Source: a bacterium
GTDB taxonomy: Bacteria > Bacteroidota > Bacteroidia > Bacteroidales > P3
Length of the DNA: 55,615 nucleotides
NCBI GenBank assembly: GCA_014802725.1
Contig: JAAVBS010000005.1
Span: 1-55,615 of the forward strand
Reading direction: 5' to 3'
Shown piece after piece: positions 9,782-14,809 of the stretch (positions are counted from its first letter, which is position 1; each line of letters starts with the position of its first letter). The notes beneath the pieces were generated by a model that saw nothing but the letters and a program-made list of their open reading frames with translations, was not told the origin of the DNA and searched no databases. Position numbers and translations under genes: made by a program.

Positions 9782-9793
9782 TATCTTTGTGCT
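9782..9793 (+). promoter_or_regulatory. Bacteroidota -7 box TATCTTTG, 4 nt before bamD ATG
   Basis: TATCTTTG-TGCT-ATG; -33 element not recognisable. Confidence 0.6.
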
Positions 9794-10600: not shown

Positions 10601-10945
10601 ATGGATTACAAGAAAATCAAAGCCTCCCAGGAAGCCATCACGCGGGATGTCTCCAAATTCGACACGCTTACGGGCAATCTGTACGAAACCGTAGTCGTGC
10701 TGTCCAAGCGGGCCAATACGATTTCCTCGGCCCTGCGTCAGGAGTTGGTCAATAAGATTTCGGAATATACGCCGACCGCCGCGGCCCAGGAAGGGGCGGA
10801 GGAAGTCTATGAGAACAAGGAACAGATTGAAATCGCGCGTTACTACGAGCAACTGCCCAAGCCGACGCTGATGGCCGTGCAGGAACTCATGGAAGACGGC
10901 CTTTGCTTCCGTCGTCCGTCCGAAGACGTCGATCCCATCGACTAA
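10601..10945 (+). CDS. rpoZ: DNA-directed RNA polymerase omega-like subunit (Bacteroidota RpoZ)
   Basis: 'MDYKKIKASQEAITRDVSKFDTLTGNLYETVVVLSKRANTISSALRQEL'; bamD-rpoZ-coaBC order. Confidence 0.85.
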   Translation: MDYKKIKASQEAITRDVSKFDTLTGNLYETVVVLSKRANTISSALRQELVNKISEYTPTAAAQEGAEEVYENKEQIEIARYYEQLPKPTLMAVQELMEDGLCFRRPSEDVDPID

Positions 10946-10957
10946 GCGGAAACCACC

Positions 10958-13090
10958 GTGTCGTTGCAGGGAAAACATATCGTGTTGGGCGTGAGCGGCG
11001 GCATAGCCGCTTACAAGACGCCGGCCCTCGTGCGTCTGTTCGTGCAGGCGGGGGCGGAGGTGCGCGTCGTGTGTACGGCGCATGCGCTGGAATTCGTCAC
11101 GCCCCTGACGCTGGAAACCGTTTCGGGCAACAGTCTCTATACCGATATGTTCCACCGCGTGGGCGAACGGAGTACGCGCCATGTCCATTACGCCGACTGG
11201 GCCGACGTGCTGCTGGTGGCGCCCGCCACGGCCAACATCTTGGCCAAAATGGCGCACGGTATCGCCGACGACGCGTTATCTACCTTATATTTGGCATTCC
11301 ATAAACCCGTTATCGTTTCGCCGGCCATGAACGTGCATATGTACGAACATCCGGCCACGGTCGAAAACCTGCGGCTGTTGGCGCACCGGGGCGTTCATGT
11401 GCTCGATGCGGCCTACGGGCCGTTGGCCTGCGGCTGTGAAGCCAAGGGACGGATGCCGGAGCCGGAAGAACTCTTCCGTGCAACGGAGGCCGTCTTGACG
11501 CGGGCCGTGGCGGGGGCTGAACCGGCCGGTGCGGAAGCCGCGCCGCTGCGGGGCAAAAAAGTGCTCGTGACGGCCGGTCCCACGCAAGAACCCATCGACC
11601 CCGTGCGTTATATCACCAACCGTTCGTCCGGCCGCATGGGCTTCTGCATAGCCGATGCCTTGCAGCGGCAGGGGGCGGAAGTCTTTTTGGTCAGCGGCCC
11701 GTCGGCCCTGGAACCCCAAACGGCCGTGGCGCATTGGGAAAAGGTTCGTACGGCGCAGGAGATGTACGATTGTCTGTTGCGTTGGTGGCCCGATATGGAT
11801 GCCGGCGTGTTCTCGGCCGCCGTGGCCGACTACCGCGTGCGCGACGTTTCGGATGTCAAGATGAAGAAAACGGGCGGGAACACCGCGCTCGAACTCGTGC
11901 CCAATCCCGATTTGCTGGCCTATGCCGGCGCACACAAGACCGACCGGCAGTGCGTCGTCGGCTTTGCGCTCGAAACCGACCATGCGTTGGCCAACGCCGA
12001 GGAGAAACGGCGTCGGAAGAATGCCGACATCATGGTGCTCAATACGTTGGAAGACGCTGGCGCGGGTTTTGAAACGACAACGAATAAAGTGACGTTCCTT
12101 TATAAAGACGGTACAGTCGAGGCGGGTGAATTGGAAAGCAAGGTGTCCGTGGCCGAAAGGCTCGTGCGGCGGTTGGGCCGCTGTATGGGCGTTTTGACCG
12201 TGTGGTGCCTGTTGCTGTTCGGCGGTGCGGGCCTGCAGGCGCAGGAACTGAACTGCACGCTGCAGGTGGTAAGCACCAAGGTACAGAGCGGCGATAAAAA
12301 GGTGTTCGAGACATTGCAGGACGCTTTGACCGCTTTCGTCAACGGGCAGAAATGGACGAACCTGCAGGTGGGACCCGGCGAGAAAATTCCGTGCAGCATG
12401 ACGATGGAAGTGCAGGAGCGCGACTATACGACGGGCATTACCAAGGCGTATCTAACCGTTCAGGCGCGCCGCCCCGTCTATAACGCTTCGTATCAGACCA
12501 ACCTGCTCAACGTGGTGGACAAGGATTTTACGTTTACCTACAACGCGTTTGACCCCATCGAATTTTCCGACAACAACATATCCTCCAATCTGACGGCCGT
12601 CATCGCGTATTACAGTTACCTTATAATAGGGCTTTATTTAGACAGTTTCGCCCCCAATGCCGGCGAAGTATGCCTGAACAAGGCGGACAATGTCGTGAGT
12701 ATGTGCCAGGGCATGAGCGAACCGGGCTGGAAGTCCGGCGAACGCAACAACCGTAACCGGTATTGGATGATAGAGAATTACCTGAACGGTAACTATGGTG
12801 CCATCCACGACGTGTTGTATCAATACCACCGCAAGGGGCTTGACCTTATGTACGGCAATCCGGCGGACGGCCGGGCCGGTGTTTTGCAGGCCATGAACGC
12901 CCTCAAGGCCTTGAACGATACGCGCAGCGGTCTGCCGTGCAAACTCCTGTTTATGGAAGCCAAGTCCGACGAATTGGTCTCCATGTTTTCGGGGGCGTCG
13001 CAGGATGAACGGCAACAGGCGGTTGCGATACTCAATGCGCTTGACCCGTCCAATGCCCAGAAATATCAGAAAATCCTATCGGCGCGATAG
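10958..13090 (+). CDS. coaBC: Single frame encoding CoaBC (about 10958-12184) continuous with DUF4835 secreted protein (12185-13090)
   Basis: 'GKHIVLGVSGGIAAYK', 'VLVTAGPTQEPIDPVRYITNRSSGRMGFCIADAL', 'KNADIMVLNTLEDAGAGF' then 'MGVLTVWCLLLFGGAGLQAQELNCTLQVVSTKVQSGDKKVFETLQDALTAFVNGQKWTNL' with no stop between. Confidence 0.9.
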   Translation: MSLQGKHIVLGVSGGIAAYKTPALVRLFVQAGAEVRVVCTAHALEFVTPLTLETVSGNSLYTDMFHRVGERSTRHVHYADWADVLLVAPATANILAKMAHGIADDALSTLYLAFHKPVIVSPAMNVHMYEHPATVENLRLLAHRGVHVLDAAYGPLACGCEAKGRMPEPEELFRATEAVLTRAVAGAEPAGAEAAPLRGKKVLVTAGPTQEPIDPVRYITNRSSGRMGFCIADALQRQGAEVFLVSGPSALEPQTAVAHWEKVRTAQEMYDCLLRWWPDMDAGVFSAAVADYRVRDVSDVKMKKTGGNTALELVPNPDLLAYAGAHKTDRQCVVGFALETDHALANAEEKRRRKNADIMVLNTLEDAGAGFETTTNKVTFLYKDGTVEAGELESKVSVAERLVRRLGRCMGVLTVWCLLLFGGAGLQAQELNCTLQVVSTKVQSGDKKVFETLQDALTAFVNGQKWTNLQVGPGEKIPCSMTMEVQERDYTTGITKAYLTVQARRPVYNASYQTNLLNVVDKDFTFTYNAFDPIEFSDNNISSNLTAVIAYYSYLIIGLYLDSFAPNAGEVCLNKADNVVSMCQGMSEPGWKSGERNNRNRYWMIENYLNGNYGAIHDVLYQYHRKGLDLMYGNPADGRAGVLQAMNALKALNDTRSGLPCKLLFMEAKSDELVSMFSGASQDERQQAVAILNALDPSNAQKYQKILSAR

Positions 13091-13123: not shown

Positions 13124-14809
13124 ATGCTGAAACACCTCTCCATCGAAAATTATGCGTTGATACAATCGGTATCCCTTTCGTTCGGTCCCGGCTTTACCGT
13201 GATTACGGGCGAGACGGGGGCGGGGAAGTCCATTCTGTTGGGCGCGTTGGGCTTGCTGTTGGGCAACCGCGCGGAAACGCAGGTGTTGTTCGACAAGGAG
13301 AAGAAATGCGTGGTGGAAGCCGTATTTGAAATATCGCGGCCGGAGGTAAGCCGCATTTTGGCCGACAACGACTTGGACGAGGCGGAAGACGGCACGTTGT
13401 TGCTGCGCCGCGAAATCACGGCCGCCGGTAAGTCGCGCGCGTTCGTCAACGATACCCCTTGTTCGTTGCCGGTGTTGAAAGCCCTGTCGGCCTACCTTGT
13501 GGACATCCATTCCCAGCATAAGACGATGGACATGGTACGGCCGTCCTTCCTGTTGGAAATCGTGGACGGTTACATTCCGGCGGAAAAGCGCGTGGCGGCC
13601 GAATATGCGCCGCTGTACAAACGCTACGTCCGTGTTCAGGCCGATTTAGAAGCTTTGGTCACGGCGCGTCAGGCCTGGGAACGCGAACAGGACTATTGGC
13701 GCTTCCTTTACGAAGAGTTGGAGGCGATGCAGTTGCAGGCGGGCGAGCAGGCCGAATTGGAGGCCGTGCTGTCGCAACAGCAGCACGCCGAGCAGATCAA
13801 AGAGGCGATGGAAGCGGCGCAGGCGGCTTGGACGCAGGGCGAGGAAGCCATGGAAGCCCGTTTGACCCAAACCGTGCGTCAGTTAAAGAAAATAGCCGCC
13901 TATCACAGCGGTTTGCAGGCCGCTTTGCCGCGTTGGGAATCGGCCCTTATCGAATTGAACGACCTGCAGGGCGACCTGCGGAATTGGAGCGGCGCGTTGG
14001 AATTCTCGCCCGCGGAAAAGGCCGCTACCGAAGAACGGTTGAGTCGTATATATGCATTGGAGAGCAAGCACCGCGTACAGACGGTAGAGGAATTGATAAC
14101 CTTGCGCGATCAAACGGCGCAACGCTTGCAGGCCGAAGACGGGCGGGCGGAAGAGCAACAACGGTTGGAAGCCGAGGCCGCGGAACTGAAATCCGCCTTG
14201 GAGGCGTTGGCCGTCCGTTGGCGCGAAGCGCGTTTGGAGGCCGGCCGCCGCTTGATGGCAAAGACGCAGGAGGCTTTGGCCGATTTGGCCATGCCGGATG
14301 CCACGCTCGTATTACAGTGGGACGAAGAAGCCGATTTTACGCCGCGCGGCAAAGACCGTGTGCGGCTGTTGTTCAACGCCAACCGGGGCGGCGTGCCGGC
14401 CGAATTGGGCAAGGTGGCTTCGGGCGGTGAACTCTCGCGCCTGATGTTGGCCATCAAGTCGGTTATTCATGAAAACAGTTTGATACACTGTTTGATATTG
14501 GATGAAATAGATACGGGCGTCTCCGGCGAAACGGCGGCCAAGATGGCCGTTATGATGCAGCGGATGGCGCAATATATGCAGGTGGTCAGCATCACGCATC
14601 TGCCGCAGATAGCGGCCAAGGCCAACGCGCATTACCGTGTCAGCAAGCAGGTGGCGGGCGACCGTAGCCTCTCGCGCATCGAACCTTTGGATGCAGGGGC
14701 GCACCGCAATGCAATTGCCGCCATGCTCAGCGACGGTACGCCTACGAAGGAAGCTTTGGAAGCGGCGGACGTGCTATTAGAGAAAGGATTGTATGAAAGA
14801 GGAAGTTGA
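13124..14809 (+). CDS. recN: DNA repair protein RecN
   Basis: 'MLKHLSIENYALIQSVSLSFGPGFTVITGETGAGKSILLGALGLLLG', 'GGELSRLMLAIKSVIHENSLIHCLILDEIDTGVSGETAAKM'. Confidence 0.95.
   Translation: MLKHLSIENYALIQSVSLSFGPGFTVITGETGAGKSILLGALGLLLGNRAETQVLFDKEKKCVVEAVFEISRPEVSRILADNDLDEAEDGTLLLRREITAAGKSRAFVNDTPCSLPVLKALSAYLVDIHSQHKTMDMVRPSFLLEIVDGYIPAEKRVAAEYAPLYKRYVRVQADLEALVTARQAWEREQDYWRFLYEELEAMQLQAGEQAELEAVLSQQQHAEQIKEAMEAAQAAWTQGEEAMEARLTQTVRQLKKIAAYHSGLQAALPRWESALIELNDLQGDLRNWSGALEFSPAEKAATEERLSRIYALESKHRVQTVEELITLRDQTAQRLQAEDGRAEEQQRLEAEAAELKSALEALAVRWREARLEAGRRLMAKTQEALADLAMPDATLVLQWDEEADFTPRGKDRVRLLFNANRGGVPAELGKVASGGELSRLMLAIKSVIHENSLIHCLILDEIDTGVSGETAAKMAVMMQRMAQYMQVVSITHLPQIAAKANAHYRVSKQVAGDRSLSRIEPLDAGAHRNAIAAMLSDGTPTKEALEAADVLLEKGLYERGS

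Follow-up and report, generated by a model that had tools for sequence, protein, structure and literature searches.

A genus-specific fusion of coaBC and porD in Bacteroidales, encoding a probable polyprotein with an internal signal peptide

The coaBC and porD genes of one genus of Bacteroidales are fused into a single gene. The fusion is real at the DNA level and specific to this genus: in the window analyzed here, a stretch of 55,615 nucleotides from a metagenome-assembled genome (MAG), one open frame of 710 codons runs on the + strand from GTG10958 to TAG13088-13090, with no stop codon between its CoaBC and PorD halves. Such a frame, joining CoaBC, a signal peptide and a DUF4835 domain, had been described in an earlier note on this sequence, and both profile matches and the comparison of genus members bear the description out. 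The product is probably a natural bacterial polyprotein, in which an internal signal peptide would export PorD and signal peptidase I would cut after A428, as judged from sequence features. Coordinates of the fused gene, its parts and its neighbours are given in Table 1.

Table 1. Features of the coaBC-porD locus in the window
Feature	Position	Strand	Details
Bacteroidota-type -7 element TATCTTTG	9782..9789	+	ahead of bamD/yfiO-like gene; motif match only
RNA polymerase omega/Rpb6-like gene	10601..10945	+	upstream; ends 12 bases before fusion
coaBC-porD single frame	10958..13090	+	710 aa, ~77.7 kDa; GTG start, TAG stop
CoaC (phosphopantothenoylcysteine decarboxylase) domain	10958..11485	+	residues ~1-176; Pfam Flavoprotein 6-174; motifs
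CoaB (phosphopantothenate-cysteine ligase) domain	11546..12169	+	residues ~197-404; Pfam DFP 197-380; TIGR00521 to 404; motifs
Final CoaB helix and basic tail VSVAERLV[R/Q]RLGRC	12140..12184	+	residues 395-409; now provides the positive charges of the signal-peptide n-region
In-frame GTG403	12164..12166	+	only other internal start giving a basic n-region (M[R/Q]RLGRCMG...); conserved, poor start context
Internal signal peptide MGVLTVWCLLLFGGAGLQA	12185..12241	+	residues 410-428; hydrophobic core; signal peptidase I site predicted after A428 from an alignment to other PorDs
Mature PorD (DUF4835)	12242..13087	+	residues 429-710
recN	13124..14809	+	downstream of the fusion's TAG; normal separate start

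Both halves of the fused gene are complete

Residues 3-404 match the TIGR00521 CoaBC profile with 399.9 bits, against a cut-off of 219.7. Motifs are intact for CoaC (His75, Asn125 and the LACG cysteine) and for CoaB (NRSSGRMG, AAVADY and the lysine motif KMKK), and we take these residues to have the roles assigned in established work on E. coli Dfp. The best match among solved structures is the Mycobacterium smegmatis CoaBC 6TGV, with 38% identity over the fold. An AlphaFold model built on 64 aligned sequences contains two domains with pLDDT >90, the CoaB C-terminal helix at 395-409 and a low-confidence or disordered hydrophobic link at 415-426; the domains take no fixed orientation, and the low pTM of 0.49 would be as expected for two units without fixed contact.

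The second half matches NF052317 (T9SS_PorD) at residues 415-706 with 326 bits, against a cut-off of 170, while Pfam DUF4835 covers residues 429-706 over its whole length (profile positions 1-276 of 276). The link that the earlier note drew between DUF4835 and the type IX secretion system (T9SS) component PorD is confirmed by this match and by published work: PorD is a periplasmic protein that binds the type IX translocon subunit PorW/SprE, a partner that sits beneath the outer membrane. P. gingivalis secretes more efficiently with PorD, whereas F. johnsoniae can do without it (PMC8754138, PMC10994853). Each genus genome has 15-31 matches to the Por_Secre_tail cargo domain, and SprA is also present, so that PorD has a task in these species.

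We identified TATCTTTG as a likely promoter candidate for the operon, because it is the sole strict -7 match nearby in an A+T-rich stretch preceding a gene. At the CoaBC start itself (GTG10958), local folding amounts to -16.6 kcal/mol, among the lowest 3-4% of true starts, and initiation there is possibly low.

An internal signal peptide joins the two products

The junction reads ...AERLVRRLGRC-MGVLTVWCLLLFGGAGLQA/QELNC..., the slash marking the predicted cut. Two products thus share one stop-less frame in which they flank a signal peptide, the layout of a polyprotein. The internal signal peptide is as hydrophobic as those of separately encoded PorDs (19-residue Kyte-Doolittle 1.7-1.8), and the three species of the genus in which we found the locus all retain LQA/QE, the usual cleavage region of PorD signal peptides. 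Signal peptidase I is encoded in the same genomes. An ordinary PorD-like core, the LQA/QE region and the presence of signal peptidase I together favour co-translational insertion and a cut after A428; membrane insertion and cleavage are thus supported with moderate confidence.

In the mechanism that we propose, ribosomes would begin at GTG10958, make CoaBC and continue into PorD. The hydrophobic stretch 411-426, lying behind the folded basic tail of CoaBC, would act as an internal signal sequence, so that CoaBC would remain cytosolic and the PorD part would be threaded through SecYEG. Cleavage by signal peptidase I after A428 would then release PorD to join SprE/PorW at the outer membrane, and CoaBC would keep a hydrophobic tail of ~19 residues, an inner-membrane tether unless trimmed. 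Against this scheme, it is unusual for a Sec substrate to carry a folded domain of 409 residues before its cleavable signal peptide. The quaternary structure of the enzyme also has to be considered. Mycobacterial CoaBC is strictly dodecameric, with CoaC in the core and CoaB outermost (PMC7794376), and the twelve outward tails or PorD chains of a dodecamer could not all reach one membrane; either cleavage and trimming would therefore be efficient, or the assembly would differ here. The tail may be trimmed, targeting may be incomplete, or the assembly may be smaller.

The chain may also stay uncut, as a permanent type II inner-membrane protein with a cytosolic CoaBC and a tethered periplasmic PorD, which would link CoA synthesis physically to the T9SS. 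The sequence evidence for the fusion applies equally to such a protein, and a stretch of this hydrophobicity could serve as an anchor. We nevertheless consider this outcome unlikely: the LQA/QE region has been retained in each species, the stretch is about as hydrophobic as a cleavable signal peptide and has not shifted towards the values of a transmembrane helix, and the partner of PorD is located under the outer membrane. There is a small chance that CoaBC, which is essential and regulated by CoA, is kept at the inner membrane by an uncut or tail-anchored fusion, with PorD supplied in strict stoichiometry with CoA synthesis.

Translation is predicted to yield a single chain

The earlier note had offered two readings of the locus. 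In one of them, DUF4835 also initiates at the internal ATG12185. We evaluated this site with a start-context model for the window's genome (247 genes, 59 of them with unambiguous ATG starts), in which the region upstream of starts is A-rich, as expected of Bacteroidota. The 20 bases before ATG12185 contain no A, the poorest start context measured, and with a score of -11.9 the site ranks beneath every one of the 59 confident starts and 99.7% of the 1704 internal Met codons. Local folding at this site reaches -26.3 kcal/mol, compared with a mean of -6.0 at true starts, and is lower than at any true start; the same ATG in the two sister species has scores of -11.2 and folding of -21 to -22 kcal/mol.

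The charges of the signal peptide point in the same direction. A Lys or Arg occurs within three residues of the initial Met, usually as MKK or MRK, in 78 of 78 ATG-started PorDs examined, a count that includes a few repeat fetches of one locus. The N-terminal Sec signal peptide with a basic n-region after its own start, a family-typical trait that lies outside the NF052317 model, is absent from the fusion: counted from M410, its signal peptide has no Lys or Arg, and R405 and R408 (plus R404 in the window species) precede M410. Since the n-region charges sit in the CoaBC tail, M410 is probably not the N-terminus of the chain bearing the signal peptide, and we regard this as the strongest sign in the analysis. 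Start context, mRNA structure and missing charges together make an independent PorD start at ATG12185 very unlikely, and this reading is strongly disfavoured. The other reading, a fused chain with a signal-anchor that is perhaps released by signal peptidase, gains from the stop-less junction, the single copies of both genes and the displacement of the charges to the CoaBC tail; the term 'read-through' used for it was wrong, as no stop exists. Sequence features thus argue strongly for translation as a single chain.

A broader version of internal initiation would have in-frame overlapping genes, with CoaBC always extended and most PorD made from GTG12164 (MRRLGRCMG...) or ATG12185. GTG403 is indeed conserved in the three species and gives a basic n-region, and in related genera stop-start overlaps of the ATGA type couple both genes translationally. 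However, start scores at both sites do not exceed the 5th percentile of true starts, mRNA structure is strong (-26 to -27 kcal/mol at both sites in the window), upstream sequences are GC-rich, and no promoter-like element was found just upstream of the internal sites. Moreover, this gene is G+C-rich and often uses GTG for Val. Overlapping genes are therefore an improbable explanation, and as CoaBC lacks a stop of its own, it would still be made in fused form even if internal starts occur.

We find it very doubtful that a frameshift near the junction ends some CoaBC chains and releases free enzyme. The +1-frame TGA to which the earlier note drew attention does exist, at 12195, and is present at +10 in all three species; however, it merely follows from the conserved codons TTG ACN, and no conserved slippery sequence accompanies it, the local sequence being GTTTTGA in two species, including that of the window, and GTGTTGA in the third (G003).

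The frame has been kept open within the genus

Our genus sample comprises four genomes, all MAGs. The locus is present in three of them, the window's genome and two uncultured Bacteroidales bins, and the fourth, 61% complete, gave no match to it. The junction is free of stops in all three genomes with the locus, which represent three species and were separately assembled. The alignment of loci from close relatives that the earlier note had proposed as a check thus reveals no coaBC stop in the genus, with two other species sharing the open junction. That a missed indel or substitution masks a coaBC stop is next to inconceivable: although the assembly of the window's genome is fragmentary, at 55.5% completeness, three separate assemblies of different species, with many silent differences, have exactly matching stop-less frames.

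The three fused proteins share 95% amino-acid identity, with nucleotide identities of 93-96% over CoaBC and 89-95% over PorD. NG86 dN/dS ratios among them are 0.07-0.09 for CoaBC, 0.06-0.09 for PorD and 0-0.13 over junction codons 395-430, and silent changes are observed on either side of the junction. As judged from these ratios, both halves and the junction are under purifying selection, and since synonymous sites have diverged while the frame stayed open, the continuous frame appears to have been maintained. The possibility that PorD is a pseudogene or decaying was rejected, in view of its dN/dS and of the T9SS present. No second coaBC or porD was found in the genus genomes, with one match to each per genome. 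As all genomes are MAGs of a single genus, the fusion counts as one evolutionary event.

Relatives outside the genus have separate genes

We inspected each of 72 distinct Bacteroidota loci in which coaBC lies upstream of an ATG-started porD, and found a coaBC stop in all of them. The two genes overlap in 11 loci and are 0-15 bases apart in 32, and their frame relation varies. Outside the genus, no unbroken match to residues 1-710 occurred among the matches listed in scans of the family and of the phylum, in which 184 and 391 genomes, respectively, had a match. As far as seen, the fusion appears to be unique to this genus; the situation envisaged in the earlier note, in which all relatives have two separate genes, is true of the other genera and false within this one. 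Apparent long frames elsewhere (in G018, G046 and several entries of 726-744 codons in the phylum scan) were not fusions where inspected: in L031, L032, L158, L160, L161 and L176, stops separate coaBC from porD and the reported frame length covers both matches.

In a neighbouring genus, g11 (loci L137, L140, L141 and L135), the porD ATG begins 4 bases before the end of coaBC, in an ATGA overlap. This arrangement is likely a translationally coupled state near the fused one, and its occurrence in several g11 species implies that very small changes could have fused coaBC and porD. In family f1 (for example, genera g2, g3, g6 and g7), coaBC and porD lie far apart or on separate contigs, so that much of the family has lost the usual coaBC-porD-recN neighbourhood.

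The survey also revealed irregularities inside coaBC. CoaC and CoaB are in different frames in three other Bacteroidota genomes (region L033:1462 of G040, region L038:1280 of G010, and L199 of G047), and the linker between the two domains has 10-13 consecutive A where the shift occurs (for L033 and L038, this was read in the sequence itself). Some 25 other coaBC genes carry 8-13 A in this region and stay in frame. The A-runs suggest either slippage, by which CoaC would be made by itself besides CoaBC, or assembly errors at homopolymers. In L200 (G050), the CoaC and CoaB halves are out of frame too, without a long A-run.

Discussion

The fusion is a new arrangement of known parts and not a new kind of system. 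Like CoaBC of the TIGR00521 family (6TGV, E. coli Dfp/CoaBC), its first half is a complete two-domain enzyme with intact motifs; however, the separate versions seen here end after CoaB, whereas in this genus the frame runs on without a stop into a signal peptide and another protein, which is exported. The second half resembles other PorDs (NF052317, DUF4835) in its full-length family match, signal-peptide core, cleavage region and the T9SS in the genome. Elsewhere PorD has its own gene, its own start and a Lys/Arg n-region, while in the fusion an internal signal peptide borrows the charges of CoaBC.

In Bradyrhizobium, the FbcH precursor of cytochrome b-c1 is cut at an internal signal peptide. 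Both cases have one gene and two products that signal peptidase is expected to part at a signal sequence inside the chain. FbcH, however, joins two subunits of one membrane complex, whereas the fusion joins an essential soluble enzyme to an unrelated periplasmic secretion factor. A literature search for precedents of the FbcH type returned nothing usable. The capsid-prM junction of the flavivirus polyprotein also has a cytosolic domain, an internal signal sequence and an exported domain in one chain; this is a eukaryotic virus using the ER, and the likeness is one of layout only. Its processing by signal peptidase has been reviewed (PMC7601889).

The coaBC-porD fusion illustrates how a tightly packed operon can collapse to one gene through a single stop loss, and how the n-region charges of an internal signal peptide may come to be provided by the enzyme ahead of it. 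Automatic annotation may label such a gene by its first half alone, so that PorD would be missed in this genus. If the uncut or tail-anchored reading were true, a metabolic enzyme would be built into a protein-export machine or would ration it. With the cleavage predicted above, the fusion would be a clean natural bacterial polyprotein that straddles the inner membrane and provides both an essential soluble enzyme and a secreted protein.
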